Shown here: piece by piece, positions 1 to 8,500 of the stretch
Layout of the letters: each line of letters starts with the position of its first letter
How positions within the stretch are numbered: the first letter of the stretch is position 1
Assembly (NCBI GenBank): GCA_944362695.1
Contig: CALVTQ010000135.1
Span: 1 to 50,677, forward strand
Direction: 5' to 3'
DNA: 50,677 bases
Source of the DNA: an uncultured Clostridia bacterium
GTDB taxonomy: Bacteria; Bacillota; Clostridia; Christensenellales; Aristaeellaceae
Translations under genes and position numbers: made by a program
The notes under the pieces: model-generated
Told to the model about the DNA's origin: nothing
Databases searched by the model: none
What the model saw: only the letters and a program-made list of their open reading frames with translations

Positions 1-105
1 CGCCGCCGTGGTGATCGCCAGCGTCGGGCACATGCCCAGCACCATGCGGAACGTGGGGTTCTCGTCAATGATGCCGTTCATGAAGATTTTACGCAGTTCC
101 TTCAC
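1..105 (-). CDS. rnfE: RnfE, electron transport complex subunit E (5' part only)
   Basis: The first 35 codons of a gene that continues past the left edge. Translation begins MKELRKIFMNGIIDENPTFR and goes on to a VLGMCPTLAIT segment, which matches the conserved N-terminus of RnfE/NqrD-type membrane subunits. I chose the GTG start because an AGGAGG lies 8 nt upstream, inside the end of rnfG, and the stop of rnfG is only a few bases before it. RnfE is an integral membrane subunit of the ferredoxin:NAD+ oxidoreductase that pumps Na+ or H+. Its place after C, D and G is the usual Rnf order, so rnfA and rnfB are expected beyond the edge. Confidence 0.9.
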   Translation of the reverse strand, partial: MKELRKIFMNGIIDENPTFRMVLGMCPTLAITTAA

Positions 106-1860
106 TTACTGCACCTCCTTAGCGGCCTGAGCCAGCGCATCGTTGATGGCGTTGCTGGTCATCGTCACGCCCGCCTTCACGTCGATCTTCGCCGTCGCGA
201 TATCCTGACCCACCAGCGCACCAAACACGGCGGTATCCGCGATCAGGTCAGCACCCAGGCCCGGCGTCTCGTTGTGCTCGGTCACGGCCACAGACACGAT
301 CTTGCCTGCGTCGTCAACCGCAACCGCGACCTTCATCGGGCCAAAGCCGGTCACCTCGTACACAGGCGCGTCGGTAGCCGGAGCGCTCTCCTCCACCGCA
401 TCGGACGGAGCCGCAACAGCGTCCTCGACAACCGCGACGCCGTTGGCGATGGCGGCCTGCGCAAGCGCGTTGTTGATGGCGTCGCTGGTCAGCGTCACAC
501 CGGCCTTGACATCCACCTTCGCGGTCGACAGATCCGCACCCACCAGCGCGGCGAGCGCTTCCTCGGTCAGCATGTCCGCACCAAAGCCCGGCGTCTCGCT
601 GTGATCCGGGGCAGCCACGGAGACGATCTTGCCGTCCGCAACTTCAATATAAAGGGTAAACTTGTTCATGCCCTTGACGGTGTAGGGATCGCCAGCCGGG
701 CCGGCCACAGCGCCGTTATCGGCGGCAGCCTGCTTGAGCGCGTCATTGATGCCGTTGCTGGTCATCGTCACGCCCGCCTTCACGTCGATCTGCGCCGTCG
801 CGATGTCCTGACCCACCAGCGCGTCGAACACGGTCGCGTCAGCGATCAGGTCAGCGCCCAGGCCCGGCGTCTCGCCGTGCTCCACAACGGAGACAGAGAC
901 GATCTTGCCCGCGTCATCGACCTCAACGGCAACCTTCATCGGGCCAAAGCCCTGCACGTCATACGTCTTCGCGCCGCCCTCAGCCGGGGAACCGGCCATC
1001 TTCAGCGCCTCGTTGATGGCGTTGCTCGTCAGCGTGACGCCAGCCTTCACGTCGATCTGCGCCGTCGCGATGTCCTGACCGATCAGCGCGCCGAACACGG
1101 CAGCATCGGCGATCAGGTCAGCGCCGAAGCCCGGCGTCTCGTTGTGCTCGAGGATGGCGATCGAGGCGATCTTGCCCGCGTCATCCACGCCGATCTCGAC
1201 CTTGATCGGGCCATAGCCGGTCACGTCGTAGGTGTTGGTCGTCACGACGGGCTCCGCCGCCTCGCCGGAGGCCGCAGCCGCCGCCGCGAGAATGGCGTCC
1301 TTGTCGCCCTTGTTGGGCGCGATGCCCAGCGTGTTCTTGGTGTAGGCGAGCATCTCGCTGACAGCGCCGATGAACGCGCTGGAGGAGACGGTCGCGCCGC
1401 CGATGGTGTCCACATCGTCATCAAGCGTGTCGGGGTCCGCCGCGATGGCGATGAACTGATCCATAAAGTCCGGCTCGCCGACCCTCGTGCCAAGGCCCGC
1501 AGTCTCCTGCAGCGCGCCGACGAAGGTCTGCGTCACGTAGCCGCCCGCGCTCACGCCGATGGTGATCGGGATCGGTCCGCCGTAGCCGTTCGGGCTGGCC
1601 GTCAGCGCATAGCCCTCGATCTCGCCCGCGGCATTCTTGCCCACGAAGATCTCCTCGAGCACGCTGTCCTCAGCCAAACCTTCATATTCAATTTGCTCGT
1701 ATTCGCAGCCCGGAAGCACCTTCGAGAGGGCCTCCATCTTCGACGCGAGCTTCTGGGCCTCGATCGGGCCCTTGGTCACTTCGTTGGTCAGCGCAAGCGC
1801 GACGGCCGCAACGAGCGAAAAGATGAACAAACGAAGCGCAAGCTTTCCAATATCACGCAT
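106..1860 (-). CDS. rnfG: RnfG-like subunit with five FMN-binding-type domains
   Basis: 584 aa, against roughly 200 aa for an ordinary RnfG. An N-terminal membrane anchor (about residues 5-25) is followed by a canonical FMN_bind domain (about 40-175) with the flavinylation-type motif DTIGGATVSS, whose acceptor would be Thr157. After an Ala-rich linker come four further units of about 80 residues, near 210-289, 299-379, 392-470 and 500-580. Each has a Y-x-V-x-G opening, an E/D-H-x-E-T-P-G-x-G-A-D core and a closing KAGVT(L/M)TS motif that resembles SGATxTS. In Rnf the G subunit carries a covalent FMN facing outward and passes electrons from RnfC/B towards D/E. The extra units could add flavins or act as spacers, and whether they are flavinylated cannot be read from sequence. 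The ATG at 1860 overlaps the rnfD stop, which implies coupling. Confidence 0.88.
   Translation of the reverse strand: MRDIGKLALRLFIFSLVAAVALALTNEVTKGPIEAQKLASKMEALSKVLPGCEYEQIEYEGLAEDSVLEEIFVGKNAAGEIEGYALTASPNGYGGPIPITIGVSAGGYVTQTFVGALQETAGLGTRVGEPDFMDQFIAIAADPDTLDDDVDTIGGATVSSSAFIGAVSEMLAYTKNTLGIAPNKGDKDAILAAAAAASGEAAEPVVTTNTYDVTGYGPIKVEIGVDDAGKIASIAILEHNETPGFGADLIADAAVFGALIGQDIATAQIDVKAGVTLTSNAINEALKMAGSPAEGGAKTYDVQGFGPMKVAVEVDDAGKIVSVSVVEHGETPGLGADLIADATVFDALVGQDIATAQIDVKAGVTMTSNGINDALKQAAADNGAVAGPAGDPYTVKGMNKFTLYIEVADGKIVSVAAPDHSETPGFGADMLTEEALAALVGADLSTAKVDVKAGVTLTSDAINNALAQAAIANGVAVVEDAVAAPSDAVEESAPATDAPVYEVTGFGPMKVAVAVDDAGKIVSVAVTEHNETPGLGADLIADTAVFGALVGQDIATAKIDVKAGVTMTSNAINDALAQAAKEVQ
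112..1232 (-). repeat. Four tandem in-frame repeats (about 80 codons each) inside rnfG
   Basis: Units lie roughly at 1232-1000, 966-720, 688-440 and 362-112. Units 1, 2 and 4 are nearly identical in protein over long stretches (GADLIADxxVFxALxGQDIATA), while unit 3 is more diverged. This implies duplication within the gene, with unit 3 older or under different constraint. Linkers are Ala/Pro/Gly-rich. Confidence 0.9.
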
Positions 1861-2803
1861 GCATCTTGCCCTCCCCAAAGCTCTTGATGCCGGTCACGCG
1901 CTCGATCAGCGGGGACACGACGTTCATCAGCAGGATGGCGAACGAGCACCACTCCGCCGGCGTGCTCTTGCAGTAACGGAAGATGAACAGCAGCAAGCCG
2001 CAGCCAAAGCCGAAGACCAGCTTGCCCTTGGGCGTCGCCGGAGAGGACGAGTAGTCCGTCGCCATGAAGAACGCGCCCAGGATCAGGCCGCCGGAGAGCA
2101 CCTGATAGAGCACCTCGTGCACGTCAAAGCCCGTAGCGATCAGGTAGCACACGGCGAACGTGCCGATGAAGGCCGCCGGGATGTGCCAGGTGATGACCTT
2201 GCGCCAGAACAGATACGCCGCGCCGATGAGCAGCGCGAGCTTGCAGGTCTCGCCGATCGTGCCCGGAATCGCGCCGATGAACAGCTGCCAGAGCGTGAAG
2301 CCGCCGTTTGCCGCGCCGGAAATCGGGGTCGCGGAGGCCACGGCATCCACACCGGCGAGGTTGAAGAACGCCGGCTGCGGGAAGGTGTTCATCTGGCTCG
2401 CCCAGGACAGCGAGAGAATCGCGCGGGCGGCCAGCGCCGGGTTGATGAAGTTCTGGCCGATGCCGCCGAAGATGCACTTGCACAGCAGAATCGCGATGAC
2501 AGAACCGATCACCGGCATCCAGAACGGCACGGTGGACGGCAGGTTCATCGCCAGCAGCATGCCGGTGACGACCGCGCTGAAATCGCCGATCGTATTCTTC
2601 GTGTGAGCGGCCTTGCAGTAGAACCACTCGCTCAAAACCGCCGCCGCGACGGACAGCGCCAGGATGATGAGGCTGCGGTAGCCGTACATCAGCACGCCCA
2701 CCACGCAGGCGGGCAGCATCGCGATGCAGACGTCCTGCATGATGCTCCTGGTGCTCACGCTGTCGCGCAGATGCGGAGAAGACGAAATCACATACTTAGA
2801 CAT
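1853..2803 (-). CDS. rnfD: RnfD, membrane subunit of the Rnf complex
   Basis: 316 aa, polytopic, with the RnfD/NqrB pattern. The FMN-attachment region reads GVDAVASATPI, so the acceptor would be Thr159. The SAT triplet stands where the family usually has SGAT or similar. Other family signatures are GQNFINPALAARA and MATDYSSSP. I preferred the ATG at 2803 over a GTG two codons upstream because GGAGG then lies 9 nt away instead of 3. Together with RnfG and E it forms the membrane path for electrons coupled to ion pumping. The gene begins 22 nt after the rnfC stop and its own stop overlaps the rnfG start. Confidence 0.93.
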   Translation of the reverse strand: MSKYVISSSPHLRDSVSTRSIMQDVCIAMLPACVVGVLMYGYRSLIILALSVAAAVLSEWFYCKAAHTKNTIGDFSAVVTGMLLAMNLPSTVPFWMPVIGSVIAILLCKCIFGGIGQNFINPALAARAILSLSWASQMNTFPQPAFFNLAGVDAVASATPISGAANGGFTLWQLFIGAIPGTIGETCKLALLIGAAYLFWRKVITWHIPAAFIGTFAVCYLIATGFDVHEVLYQVLSGGLILGAFFMATDYSSSPATPKGKLVFGFGCGLLLFIFRYCKSTPAEWCSFAILLMNVVSPLIERVTGIKSFGEGKMHA

Positions 2804-2825
2804 TTTCACGTTCCTCCGTAACTCG

Positions 2826-4145
2826 TTAGGACTTCTTGCTTCTGGCCACGGCCTTGGCCACGCGGCAGCTCTGCGTCAGCTCGCGCTTGGCCGGGCAGGC
2901 GTAGGTGCACGAGCCGCACTCCATGCAGTTGAGCGCGCCCGCAGCGATCGCGCCGTCATAGTTGCCGTGACGCACGAGCGTGTCGATCTTCGCGGGCATC
3001 AGCTTCATCGGGCAGGCACGCACGCAGCGTCCGCAGCGGATGCACGCGGATTCCTCGTTATGCACGCCTTCCTCGCCCAGCGCGACGAAGCCGCCGAAGT
3101 TCTTGGTGACCGGCACGTTGAGCGTAGGCATCGCCATGCCCATCATCGCGCCGCCGGAGATCAGCTTGCGCACGCCCTCGGTCAGGCCGCCCGCCATGTC
3201 CACGATGTCCATGAGGTTGGTGCCGATGCGGCAGCGCACGTTCATGGGCTTGGCCACGCGGCCCGCGACGGTCACGACGCGGTCGATGAGCGGCCTGCCC
3301 TCGCGCACGGCGGCGGAGAGCGCCGCACAGGTGCCGACATTCAAAACGATGCAGCCCGCGGCCTTGGGCAGCGCGCCGTTGGGCACGATGCGGCCCGTCA
3401 GCGCGTAGATCAGCATCTTCTCAAAGCCCTGCGGATATTTCGCCGGCAGCGCAACAACCTCAATGCCGTCCTTCGCGGCGGCCTTGAGCGCGGCGATGGC
3501 CTCGGGCTTGTTGTCCTCCACGCCGATCTTCGCGCACTTGACGCCGCTGGCCTTCATCGCCAGCTTCACGCCGTCGATGATCTGCTCGGCCTGCTCAATC
3601 ATGATCCTGTCGTCGCTGGTGAGGTACGGCTCGCACTCGCTGCCGTTGACCACAAGCGTGTCGATCGTCAGGGTCTCCTTGGTCGTGTCCAGCTTGACCG
3701 CCGTGGGGAATGCAGCGCCGCCCATGCCCACGATGCCGCAGTCGATCGCCTTCTGCACGATCTCGGACGGGGTGAGCGCGTCCACGTTTCCGCAGGGCTT
3801 GACCGATTCGTCCCAACGATCCTCAAAATCATTCTCGATCACAACCGCCGTGCAGTTTCTGCCGCTGGCAACCGTGCAGGCCGTCACCGCAACGACCTTG
3901 CCGGAAACCGACGCATGCACCGGCGCGGAAATCACACCCTGTGCCGTGCCGATGACCTGGCCCATGTTGACGGTCTGGCCGGGTTTCACGCAGCACACAG
4001 CAGGCGCGCCGGCATGCTGAGACATTGCGATCGTCACCCGAGCCGGGGCAGCCGCATTCACGATCATCGCGGATTTGGTCGAGTCTTTTCCGTTGCCAAA
4101 CTCACGAGGATGGACGCCGCCGCCAAATGTCTGGGTAGTAGCCAC
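2826..4145 (-). CDS. rnfC: RnfC, NADH-side subunit with two 4Fe-4S clusters
   Basis: 439 aa. The N-terminus FGGGVHPREFGN is the family opening. A Gly-rich GMGGAAFPT stretch (about 141-149) belongs to the NuoF-like FMN/NAD(H)-binding fold. Two CxxCxxCxxxC motifs at Cys 368/371/374/378 and 407/410/413/417 ligate two 4Fe-4S clusters. A TTG two codons upstream is possible, but the GTG at 4145 has GGAGG at 9 nt, as in rnfD. It is a peripheral cytoplasmic subunit that exchanges electrons with NAD+. First gene of the operon, downstream of a clear promoter. Confidence 0.94.
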   Translation of the reverse strand: MATTQTFGGGVHPREFGNGKDSTKSAMIVNAAAPARVTIAMSQHAGAPAVCCVKPGQTVNMGQVIGTAQGVISAPVHASVSGKVVAVTACTVASGRNCTAVVIENDFEDRWDESVKPCGNVDALTPSEIVQKAIDCGIVGMGGAAFPTAVKLDTTKETLTIDTLVVNGSECEPYLTSDDRIMIEQAEQIIDGVKLAMKASGVKCAKIGVEDNKPEAIAALKAAAKDGIEVVALPAKYPQGFEKMLIYALTGRIVPNGALPKAAGCIVLNVGTCAALSAAVREGRPLIDRVVTVAGRVAKPMNVRCRIGTNLMDIVDMAGGLTEGVRKLISGGAMMGMAMPTLNVPVTKNFGGFVALGEEGVHNEESACIRCGRCVRACPMKLMPAKIDTLVRHGNYDGAIAAGALNCMECGSCTYACPAKRELTQSCRVAKAVARSKKS

Positions 4146-4228
4146 AGACAAGTTCCTCCCTTCGCATTTTCAAACGGGCATCACGCTTTTCGCTATCTGC
4201 CCAGCATGAAATAATAATGTTACGCTAC

Positions 4229-4408: not shown

Positions 4409-5887
4409 TTACAGCAGGATGCAGACCATGCCCCCGCCGCCCTCGTTGATGATCTTTTCGAGCGTCTGCTGCACCTTGATCTGCGTGTCGTCCGGCATGT
4501 GCATGAGCTTGTTGGATAGCCCCTCACGCACAAGGTCGGACAGCGGCTTGCCGAACAGATTGCTCCCCCATATCTTCTGCGGGTCCTGCTCAAAGCCCTC
4601 CATCAGATATCGGATCATCTCCTCGCTCTGCTGCTCCGTGCCGACCACGGGCGAGACCTCCGTCTGTATGTCGACGCGGATCAGATGCAGGCTCGGCGCG
4701 CTCGCCCGCAGCCGCACGCCAAAGCGCCCGCCCTGCTTCATGATCTCCGGCTCCGCGAGCGTCATCTCCTCCAGCAGCGGCGGCACGAGGCCGTATCCCG
4801 TCTCCCGCACGCTTTGCAGGGCCTGCGCCACGTGGTCATACTCGCGCTTAGCCGCGACCAGCTCGCGAAGCAGCGACAGCAGATGCGCGTCGCTCCTGAT
4901 CGGCGTACCGCACTGTTCGGCGAGAATCTGGTTGAACAGCCCCTCCGTCAAATTCATCTGCATCAGCGCCGTGCCGCCGCCGTGGTCGATGCTCTTTTCG
5001 CTCACGGTCTCGATGTACGGGTTATCGGCCACATGCTGTGCGAAGCCGGCGATGTCGCCGATGCGCAGGCTGTCGGGCGCAGCCTCCTGCAGGCTCTGCA
5101 TCAGGCTCGTCACCAGCCAATGCCCGGCGTCCAGTGCGCCGAGCCACTCCGGCGTCTGGATGCTCACGGACACCACCGGGAACTGGCCGAGCACGCGCTC
5201 GAGGATACCGCGAATGTCCTCCTCCTCGATGTTTGCGACGTTGATGGCCTCAACCGGCACGCCGTATTGCTCCTCGAGCCCCCTGCGCAGGCTCTGCGTC
5301 TTGGCGGACTGCGGGTTTTCCGTGTTGAGCACGACGGCGAACGGCTTTTCCAGCGCCTTGAGCTCCGCGATGACCCGCGCCTCCGCCGGGACATACGCCG
5401 CGCGCGGCAGGTCGGTGACGCTGCCGTCGGTGGTTACCACGAGGCCGATGGTCGAGTGCTCGCCGATGACCTTGCGCGTGCCTGTCTCCGCCGCCTGCTC
5501 AAAGGGCATCTCCTCGGCGGCCCACGGTGTGCGCACCATGCGCAGCGCCTCGCCCTCCTGCGTGCCGAGCGCACCGTCGACAAGATAGCCCACGCTGTCG
5601 ATCAGCCGCAGCCGCACGCGGTTGTCCGCAGGCAGCGTGACCTCCACCGCCTCGTTGGGCACGAACGTGGGCTGCGTCGTCATGATCGTCCTGCCCGAAC
5701 CGCTCTGGGGCAGCTCGTCCAGCGTCCTTGCGCGGATGTGCGCATTCTCGATGCCGGGGATGACGAGCTTTTCCATGAATTTCTGGATGAACGTCGATTT
5801 TCCCGTGCGCACCGGGCCGACGATGCCGATGTATACGTCGCCCTGCGTCCGCTCCGAGATGTCCTTGTACAAATCGTAGGCCTGCAT
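4409..5887 (-). CDS. spoIVA: SpoIVA, spore coat morphogenetic ATPase
   Basis: 492 aa, the same length as the Bacillus subtilis protein. Walker A is GPVRTGKST (residues 24-32, Lys30), followed by the family stretch RARTLDELPQSGSG. The C-terminus GGGGMVCILL matches the conserved tail that anchors the protein to the forespore surface through SpoVM. It hydrolyses ATP to polymerise into the basement layer of the coat in the mother cell. I chose the ATG at 5887 over one 7 codons upstream because GGAGGG sits just before it and the start MQAYDLYKDI aligns with family N-termini. The gene is flanked by terminators on both sides, so it is monocistronic, with a sigma-E-like promoter. Confidence 0.96.
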   Translation of the reverse strand: MQAYDLYKDISERTQGDVYIGIVGPVRTGKSTFIQKFMEKLVIPGIENAHIRARTLDELPQSGSGRTIMTTQPTFVPNEAVEVTLPADNRVRLRLIDSVGYLVDGALGTQEGEALRMVRTPWAAEEMPFEQAAETGTRKVIGEHSTIGLVVTTDGSVTDLPRAAYVPAEARVIAELKALEKPFAVVLNTENPQSAKTQSLRRGLEEQYGVPVEAINVANIEEEDIRGILERVLGQFPVVSVSIQTPEWLGALDAGHWLVTSLMQSLQEAAPDSLRIGDIAGFAQHVADNPYIETVSEKSIDHGGGTALMQMNLTEGLFNQILAEQCGTPIRSDAHLLSLLRELVAAKREYDHVAQALQSVRETGYGLVPPLLEEMTLAEPEIMKQGGRFGVRLRASAPSLHLIRVDIQTEVSPVVGTEQQSEEMIRYLMEGFEQDPQKIWGSNLFGKPLSDLVREGLSNKLMHMPDDTQIKVQQTLEKIINEGGGGMVCILL

Positions 5888-5911
5888 AACATCCCTCCCT
5901 GCCGTCACGCA

Positions 5912-6013: not shown

Positions 6014-7356
6014 TCACTCGGCCAGAACGTGCGCGTTCAGCCAGTCGAACAGATTCGTGAAGCCCGCCGCGTCGAGCGCGCCGCCGCCGTTGTTCGTCGG
6101 CTCTGTGCGCATCTCCTCAGAGACGACCATCGGGTCCTGCACGCCGGTCACCTTGTCCTTAAAAACAGGCGCCCAGACCGCGTGGTTGTAGCTGGCGAAC
6201 ATCGACAGCCAGTAGTCCTCCGCGCCCATGAAGATCAGGTCGCGGTACGTCGGGATGACATCCTTGTTCGGATCGACCGCCACGTCGTCGGCCGACTGCA
6301 CGAACCAGATCGCTTCATACGACAGCGAATCGAACATTTCATCGTTCAACATGCTCGTGCCGTCCGCCGAGCCCTCGGGATGGCAGACCGCCTCGCAGAT
6401 CGGGAACGCCACCGCGAACGTGCCGGGATACGCCATGAGCATGTGCACCGTCACGTAACCGCCGTTGGAGCAGCCGCCTGATAGATGCGGCTCGCGTCCA
6501 CATCGGGGTTCGATTCGATGTACGCGTCGATGGCGTCCCTGAGTGCCGCGATGTAGCGCGAGCTCTGCGTGCCGTCGCCGTTGAGCCCGTCGCCATGATC
6601 CATCCAGCAGGTCTCGCAGTGAGCCGCGAGCACATACGCGCCGCTCACGCCATCCTCGCTAATGAAATGCGCCTGAATCGGCTCCTTCGCCAGCGCCGTC
6701 ACCTCGTTGCCCAGCAGCGCGATATTGACATCCGTGCCGCCCTCGCTGTGGCCGTGCAGCCAGACGATGAGCGGCTGCTTGTCTCCGCCCGCCAGCACCT
6801 CCGGCTCGTAGGCCGCCATGCGGATGGTGATCCCGTCCTGCGCGCCGGTCATCGGGTTCTCGTATACGCCCGTGTGCTCCATGCGCCGATTGAGCAGCGC
6901 CGTGTCCGGGCTGATGCGTGCACCGATCAGGTCGGCATCGACATCAAGCGTATCCCCGCCCGCAACCGTGGTCAGCGTGCCTTTGATCGTCACCGGGTAG
7001 CTCTCGCGCCACGTGCTGTGCGTCGTGAAGCCCTTCGAGTCAAACGGCGACGCCTCGCGCAGCTCCGCCTCCGAAAGCGTCAGCGCCACGCGGTCGGAAG
7101 CGCCCTCGACAGCCTCGCCCCATTCGTCGCACAGATACGCGCCCGTGACCTCGCGCGCCACGCCCGCCGTGCTCACGCTGATCTCACCGGCCGCGACGCT
7201 CCCGGCCGCCTCGCTCAATTGCAGCACGACCGCCGGGACGCCCGGCCCGAACGAGTATCCGCGCACGAGGATCGACGCGTCCTCCACCTGCGCCAGCGCA
7301 CCCGCCGTCATGCAGGAAGCCGCCGCCAGTATTGCCGCAAACATCTTTTTCTTCAT
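6014..7356 (-). pseudogene. Secreted alpha/beta-hydrolase (prolyl-oligopeptidase-like esterase), frameshifted
   Basis: The N-terminus MKKKMFAAILAAASCMTAGALA is a signal peptide with a GGGAG site 8 nt before the ATG. An N-terminal beta-rich region precedes the hydrolase fold, where LIVWLHGHSEGG is the oxyanion-side motif. At about 6470-6485 the frame breaks: the upstream frame reads IYQAAAPTAVT and stops, while the next frame opens with GGCSNGGYVT, the nucleophile elbow with Ser. The downstream part keeps a plausible acid (DVAVDP) and base (SYNHAVW). One indel restores a complete protein of about 440 aa, so this is either a recent mutation or an assembly error. In either case the stop falls just before the catalytic Ser. 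Substrates of such enzymes are acyl or feruloyl esters on glycans, which is inference. Confidence 0.75.
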
Positions 7357-7384
7357 ATTATATACTCCCATTTTCGCCGCTTTC

Positions 7385-7418
7385 AAAAAGCGGCCCTTCC
7401 CGCCTTGGGAGGGGCCGC
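7385..7418 (-). terminator. Terminator downstream of the second GH3 fragment
   Basis: A GC-rich hairpin (GCGGCCC-TCCC paired with GGG-AGGGCCGC, loop of 5) is followed on the minus strand by TTTTT at 7389-7385. It lies 18 nt beyond the restored stop codon of the GH3 fragment. Confidence 0.75.
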
Positions 7419-7435
7419 ATGAGGTTTGCCTTCGA

Positions 7436-8268
7436 TCAGGCAGCCTGCACCGCCCTGACCTTCTTGTTGTGCTTCACGGTGTGAACAATCGCCAGCACGC
7501 TCCAGAGCACCAGCAGCACCGCGACCGCGCCGTTGAGGATGGTCATAACCATGCCAGACCTGCGGCTCATAGCCTATGACCTCGGCGTTCATCGCGTCGG
7601 AGTTGACGTAGGCGTACAGGATGTTCTTGACCGCGTTGCGCAGCACGATGGCGTCGCCGTTGCTGGACGTATCCGCGTCCGTCCACATGCTGGACGTCAG
7701 CGTCGCCAGGTCGAGGTCGCCGCCCGCGTAGAACATCTGGCGCGGGATCATGTACTGCGGAATCGTGTTGAAGTCGCAGATCACGTAGCCGCGGAAGCCG
7801 TTCGCGTTCACGTCACGGTAGTCATAGCTCGCCAGATCGTACGGAGAGAAGGTCAGCGTCACGGTCTCGCTCGCGCCCGGCTCGAGCATGCCGGTCTTCT
7901 CGTAGCCCACGAGCACCTTGTGCGCCTTCTCTATGCCGCCCTCGTAGTACGGCGCGGAAGCGTACAGCTGCACGACGTCCTTGCCCGCGACGGAGCCGGT
8001 GTTGGTGACGGTCACGTCAACGGTGATGTCCTCGCCCTCGGTGATCTCCGCCGCGGACGGCTCGCCCACCGCCCAGTCAAATGTGGTGTAGCTCAGGCCG
8101 TAGCCGAACGGATACACGACGTTCGCATTGTACCATTCCTCGCCGTCGGTGTAGCCGCGCATCTCGCAGCAGCGGTAGCCGATGTAGATGCCCTCCTCGT
8201 AGTCGACGGAGTAGTACAGGCCGCCGTCATGCTTGTCGGTCGAGCCCTCGCCCACGCCGGTGCCGAAT
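7436..8268 (-). pseudogene. GH3 beta-glucosidase, C-terminal fragment with frameshift
   Basis: It encodes the end of a GH3 second domain (FGTGVGEGSTDKHDGGLYYS, then YPFGYGLSYTTF) and the fibronectin-III-like domain (VTVTNTGSVAGKDVVQLY). The TIM-barrel domain with the nucleophile Asp is absent. Near 7550 the frame shifts: the alternative frame encodes a hydrophobic segment (ILNGAVAVLLVLWSVLAIVH), a basic tail and a stop at 7436. The parent was therefore probably anchored by a C-terminal membrane helix. The 5' side is joined directly to a GtrA-like sequence. Non-functional as it stands. Confidence 0.75.
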
Positions 8269-8500
8269 ATGTTCCACGTGAACGGCTGCCCGAAGAGCGA
8301 CGCCCCTGAATGCCCGGCCAGCCGAAGTTGACCGCCCACAGCGACTTGAACGCATTGGGCAGGAACGTCAGAATCGCATACTTGAACACCGTAATCAGGT
8401 TGCTGACGATGACGAACAGGCCGCCCTCGCGGATCCACTGCGCCGCCTTCGGGTGCTCCCTGACGAAATTCGTGATGAAATTGCTTGCCTTGATGCTCAC
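8265..8500 (-). pseudogene. GtrA-like membrane protein, N-terminal fragment
   Basis: From a GTG at 8500 the frame reads MSIKASNFITNFVREHPKAA and then a membrane-like stretch (GGLFVIVSNLITVFKYAILT), resembling the start of GtrA-family flippase-like proteins found in Clostridia. A frameshift occurs near 8308 (GWPGI, then GASLFGQPFTWNIFG in another frame). The sequence then passes into GH3 sequence. The ribosome site is weak. The GtrA assignment rests on remembered family pattern and is moderate. Confidence 0.5.

Follow-up and report, generated by a model that had tools for sequence, protein, structure and literature searches.

The locus described here raises the question of why an RnfG protein should carry five FMN_bind-type domains, and whether the four added units are likely to hold flavin. 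The window that was analysed, a stretch of 50,677 nucleotides from an uncultured Clostridia bacterium, encodes on the minus strand at 106-1860 a protein that translates to 584 residues (ATG at 1858-1860, stop at 106-108). The whole protein scores 177 bits against TIGR01947 (rnfG), over the curated NCBIfam cut-off of 102, and is thus an RnfG; its N-terminal part alone reaches 90.3 bits, below that cut-off, so the repeats contribute part of the full score. Pfam FMN_bind (PF04205) matches the whole protein in five stretches (213 bits), and when the pieces were scored singly all five passed the cut-off of 22 bits (47.2, 57.6, 59.1, 40.6 and 55.8), which argues that the five domains are not a product of chance. 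Any RnfG that has two or more FMN-binding domains is counted as multi-flavinylated, and this one has five. A preliminary description of this DNA had reported the five-domain RnfG at these coordinates and had suggested a profile search of each unit, and on both points it is borne out.

The anatomy of the protein can be followed from its N-terminus, where a hydrophobic stretch at about residues 9-25 (1786-1836, minus strand, read by eye) is the expected membrane anchor. This region aligns to the RnfG N-termini in 9ERI and 7ZC6, which we take to be the proteins of Acetobacterium woodii and Clostridium tetanomorphum, respectively. Domain 1, the RnfG FMN_bind domain (1348-1587, minus strand; PF04205 48.8 bits in the genome search), reads DTIGGAT with T157 at the acceptor position. 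It is followed on the same strand by unit 2 (994-1218, T276, 54.5 bits), unit 3 (724-948, T365, 56.2 bits), unit 4 (454-660, T456, 40.1 bits, with Met at the flavin-stacking position) and unit 5 (121-345, T566, 55.4 bits). The unit that holds T365 shares 53-79% identity with the other three. All four extra units read DVKAGVT, exactly as first noticed: a canonical GGAT in domain 1, then four KAGVT units in which the acceptor Thr is kept, with Thr276 and Thr365 correctly placed. Neither form matches the ApbE motif Dxx[S/T]GA[S/T] completely. Domain 1 has Gly at -3, while the extra units have Ala at -3 and Val at -1 and retain the Asp, the Gly and the acceptor Thr.

The gene lies in an rnf operon, with rnfC and rnfD upstream and the start of rnfE downstream. 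Directly upstream and overlapping rnfG is rnfD (1853-2809, minus strand; TIGR01946, 289 bits against a cut-off of 207), preceded by rnfC (2826-4151, minus strand; TIGR01945, 476 bits against 246). The rnfC-rnfD-rnfG-rnfE run breaks off within rnfE, where the contig stops some 105 bases beyond rnfG; the putative rnfE fragment (1-105, minus strand) reads VKELRKIFMNGIIDENPTFRMVLGMCPTLAITTAA and was recognized by its likeness to the rnfE start of a relative, L059. As the window is the whole contig, rnfA and rnfB fall outside its view and were seen in relatives only, and no rnfB above the cut-off was found in the window's genome (83% complete). L059 itself has a complete rnfC-rnfD-rnfG-rnfE-rnfA-rnfB set, every gene of which exceeds its curated NCBIfam cut-off, and the reading frames of two further relatives (L054 and L065) follow the same order. 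Just upstream of rnfC in the window, at 4409-5908 on the minus strand, is a 499-residue frame that by eye presumably resembles the sporulation protein SpoIVA; the frame preceding rnfC in L059 has a nearly identical YDLY(K/R)DISERTQGDVYIGIVGPVRTGKSTFI stretch. Beyond it, at 6014-8438 on the minus strand, adjacent frames seem, judged by eye, to be parts of a secreted esterase-like protein and of a beta-glucosidase-like one; they appear split over different frames, perhaps through sequencing error or decay.

Tandem domains of this kind could be created or lost by an assembler. In the window, however, the three most similar units, compared in register over 240 nt, share 81-84% DNA identity, exact direct repeats within 106-1300 reach at most 39 nt, and Tandem Repeats Finder reported no array in 1-2000. 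Collapse or expansion of the repeats is thus unlikely, and we reject an assembly artefact for this gene. In many relatives (L050-L053, L055, L057, L060-L063 and L066-L070) the contig stops before the rnfG frame does, within the repeats or shortly past them, and their unit counts are accordingly lower bounds.

Whether the extra units could bind FMN was judged against the closest solved domain, 8P2B, domain 1 of CbFMN4 (alignment E 7e-10), in which the flavin is contacted by Tyr11, Leu40, Thr37, the acceptor Thr67, the Val68 backbone and Ser69 (PMC10339131). With the residues of the 8P2B chain numbered manually from the alignment, Thr37 is matched by Thr in all four units (T242, T331, T423 and T532), as is the acceptor (T276, T365, T456 and T566), and Ser69 is replaced by Thr in all four, two positions past the acceptor. 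Tyr11 corresponds to Y216, F305, M398 and F506 in units 2-5, so that among the four extra units the aromatic stacking residue is missing in unit 4 only, and Leu40 corresponds to F245, L334, F426 and L535, that is, to Phe in two. The Val of the extra units falls at Ala66 of 8P2B, a residue absent from the contact list given in PMC10339131.

To see whether this Val is peculiar to one genome, it can be set against a survey of 61 distinct RnfG proteins from 71 loci (10 duplicates removed). Within these we defined a clade of 22 proteins by similarity over the N-terminal 190 residues (score of at least 235 bits); L077, which seemed dissimilar from the others, was taken out manually, and the gene tree later placed it far off. 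(The RnfG of this outer relative has RAT in place of the expected GAT in six extra units, another change next to the acceptor.) All 22 first domains of the clade have Ala before the acceptor (GAT in 18, GAS in 4). The clade has 98 extra units, three of them cut or gapped, and the 95 that could be scored read GVT in 71, GAT in 22 and GST in two. The acceptor is Thr in every one of the 95 (codons ACG 68, ACC 23, ACT 4), the motif Gly and the glutamate of ETPGxG are likewise invariant (95/95 each), and the motif Asp and the Thr that contacts N5 are each kept in 93, with the proviso that kinship and within-gene homogenization of repeats make such unit counts non-independent and inflate the apparent conservation. 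In RnfGs outside the clade, Val occurs in only 3 of 120 scorable extra units (a further 7 are cut or gapped). Val is thus a shared, position-specific trait and not the oddity of a single genome, and the window's RnfG, with GVT in all four extra units, is one of the clean cases of the clade. Chance drift of the extra units is disfavoured by the raw counts, since Val in 71 of 95 goes together with Thr in 95 of 95. Nor has the ApbE motif loosened across the genome. Nine other FMN_bind matches in it exceed the cut-off, and none of the eight with a readable motif has Val before the acceptor (Ala in seven, Ser in one; the ninth, L014, meets a stop that leaves its motif unreadable), so we reject that explanation.

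The same contrasts could be read as a loss of function. The extra units might no longer attach flavin and act only as folded spacers, or as a tail that binds the wall or a partner, with domain 1 alone redox active. Val at -1 in 71 of 95 extra units against none of the 22 first domains would then mean that the motif Ala is kept solely where Rnf needs it, and its absence from the eight other readable motifs of the genome speaks against any general shift in what ApbE accepts. We nevertheless consider this reading unlikely. A spacer would have no reason to keep the acceptor Thr and the Gly in all 95 units and the Asp and N5-contact Thr in 93, and in the sole protein reported, the change from Ala to Val reduces flavinylation without abolishing it. 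That protein is the fumarate reductase of K. pneumoniae, in whose motif Ala-to-Val gave about 50% flavinylation, a figure from another protein and another host than the RnfG studied here, whereas replacement of the Thr abolished attachment (review PMC12052999). Unflavinylated spacers, which the preliminary description had offered as an alternative to a flavin chain, are thus disfavoured.

Furthermore, the columns that contact FMN are about equally conserved in the 71 GVT and the 22 GAT units of the clade: the N5-contact Thr is present in 97% and 100%, respectively, the stacking Phe in 84% and 95%, and the motif Asp in 100% and 91%, with a mean over all columns of 0.76 and 0.78. Taken with the retained contact residues and the partial flavinylation in the K. 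pneumoniae protein, this favours a view of the Val units as working but perhaps weaker sites of flavin attachment. Retained contacts beside a weakened motif would also suit units that bind FMN non-covalently, or at low covalent occupancy, and act as a flavin store or tuned relay and not as a full wire; sites of the two kinds, non-covalent and covalent, have been described as connected in evolution (PMC11334425). Conservation of the acceptor Thr suggests covalent use, and we regard a store or relay of this kind as quite improbable.

The explanation that we consider best, and hold with reasonable though not full confidence, is a multi-flavinylated RnfG in which domain 1 would be an ordinary shuttle and the other four domains an extracytosolic chain of four flavins fed by Rnf. 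Domain 1 would keep the usual RnfG task, swinging between the iron-sulphur centre of RnfA/RnfE and the flavin of RnfD, a shuttle role described in a review (PMC12174285). The four C-terminal units would sit outside the membrane after domain 1, each with FMN in a normal FMN_bind pocket and attached to the conserved Thr by the ApbE of the same genome. They would then form a short string of flavin beads that draws electrons off the Rnf path to extracytosolic acceptors. The Val before the acceptor Thr in this clade probably makes ApbE less efficient, or tunes the site, and stops short of abolishing it. Several points count against the chain: both variable positions of the ApbE motif are off consensus in the extra units, with Ala at -3 and Val at -1, unit 4 lacks the stacking aromatic, two units have Phe in place of Leu40, and the 83%-complete genome yielded no rnfB above the cut-off. 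On balance we favour a real flavin chain that is possibly under-flavinylated.

The genome also encodes candidate partners for such a chain. A single ApbE match scores 207 bits against a cut-off of 25.6 and is confirmed by Pfam, as a search proposed at the outset had sought, and by eye its N-terminus resembles an export signal. Five further proteins join FMN_bind to FAD_binding_2 (some of their frames are incomplete at the locus end), presumably the make-up of fumarate- or urocanate-reductase-like enzymes, and three of the five (L002, L004 and L005) have export-like starts by eye. L004 and L005 are adjacent on another contig of this genome (C144); both have an export-like start and combine a FAD_binding_2 match with a pair of FMN_bind domains, and among these domains one has NAT and another GST in place of GAT. 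These reductases would be the most plausible acceptors, and we infer a link between them and the RnfG chain. Their genes lie on contigs other than that of the rnf genes, which makes the identity of the acceptor a guess. The extracytosolic flavin chain first suggested for this locus thus gains support from the Pfam scores, the contact residues, the export-like ApbE and the reductases, with its acceptor and electron route still at the level of inference.

It is tempting to go further and to read the clade pattern as a positional code. The pump site would be held at GA(T/S), and the wire units, mostly GVT, would offer ApbE a site that is weak by design or tuned differently, so that the wire could be adjusted in occupancy or potential. 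If so, the outward leakage of Rnf electrons would depend on flavin supply or on ApbE activity. The trait is not uniform, however. Ala or Ser occurs in at least one extra unit of eight clade members out of 22 (L019, L021, L048, L051, L053, L057, L063 and L064), and two of these (L063 and L064) are without any Val unit, which argues against a strict code; we see the idea as rather unlikely. Whatever its basis, the pattern provides a natural contrast within a single protein, where one GA(T/S) site is accompanied by as many as six Val-variant sites, and this would probe both the strictness of the ApbE motif in nature and the export of electrons from Rnf in gut anaerobes. The GVT variant also offers a cheap test of whether RnfG wires really carry flavin. 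In the RnfG of this window, the four extra flavin-binding domains are probably a short wire that would let electrons leave the cell.

How widespread is this layout? At least two domains were found in all 22 clade RnfGs and in 28 of the 39 others, in a set of 61 that is biased because it was gathered by likeness to the five-domain protein. Wider samples of genomes were also searched. Across the order, 84 of 200 genomes had an RnfG match; in the window's family the frame was at least 340 residues long in 11 of 13 genomes with a match, and eight genomes of other families had a frame of more than 400 residues with an RnfG-like start, all figures that are frame lengths and not domain counts. Across the class, 142 of 196 genomes had a match, and among the matches listed most RnfG frames were of about 200 residues and only two exceeded 400, that of the window at 595 and another at 556. 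Thus, the multi-domain layout is frequent among close relatives of the window's genome and becomes rare at greater distance. The closest named relatives of the window's genome comprise uncultured Clostridia, of which many come from the guts of herbivores, and Candidatus Ventricola gallistercoris (L070), of a genus that NCBI places in Eubacteriales incertae sedis; genomes with Christensenella-type names (L064, L075 and L082) also occur. The window's genome is likely to belong to Christensenellales.

The layout is already known. Méheust et al. (2021; PMC8238504) reported 2081 proteins with several FMN-binding domains and described several RNF clusters with multi-flavinylated RnfGs, for which they proposed, but did not prove, a second electron path to extracytosolic acceptors. 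The preliminary description had not been aware of this layout fused to RnfG in an Rnf operon, and the novelty so implied does not survive the 2021 account and the abundance of long RnfGs in the window's family. It had also named many described RnfGs with the same repeats as grounds for abandoning its reading; such proteins largely exist as regards the layout, while the GVT motif is a separate matter. No description of GVT in the added units was found in the literature searched, including a search for 'SGVT' with ApbE, and it goes unmentioned in PMC8238504 as far as that paper is drawn on here. What may be new is therefore the clade pattern, Ala in the first domains and mostly Val in the extra units.

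Among known systems, the RnfGs of Méheust et al. (2021) are alike in having more than one FMN-binding domain within an RNF cluster. Their Christensenellales subset differs in carrying a multi-haem domain as well (PMC8238504); CxxCH motifs are absent from the window's RnfG and from each of the 71 RnfG frames, some of them incomplete, and we reject a multi-haem fusion. A Clostridium NosR also has several FMN-binding domains and is not an RnfG (PMC13134045). The RnfGs of 9ERI and 7ZC6 share domain 1 and the N-terminal anchor with the window's protein, but have a single FMN domain in chains of 207 and 189 residues. Finally, the purified multi-FMN proteins CbFMN4 and SaFMN3 differ in their DxxxGAT motif and in their proven covalent FMN, and their published account, as far as it is drawn on here, describes no fusion to RnfG; they are alike in having several FMN domains of about 85 residues joined by flexible linkers (PMC10339131), and it is to domain 1 of CbFMN4 (8P2B) that the extra units of the window's RnfG align.
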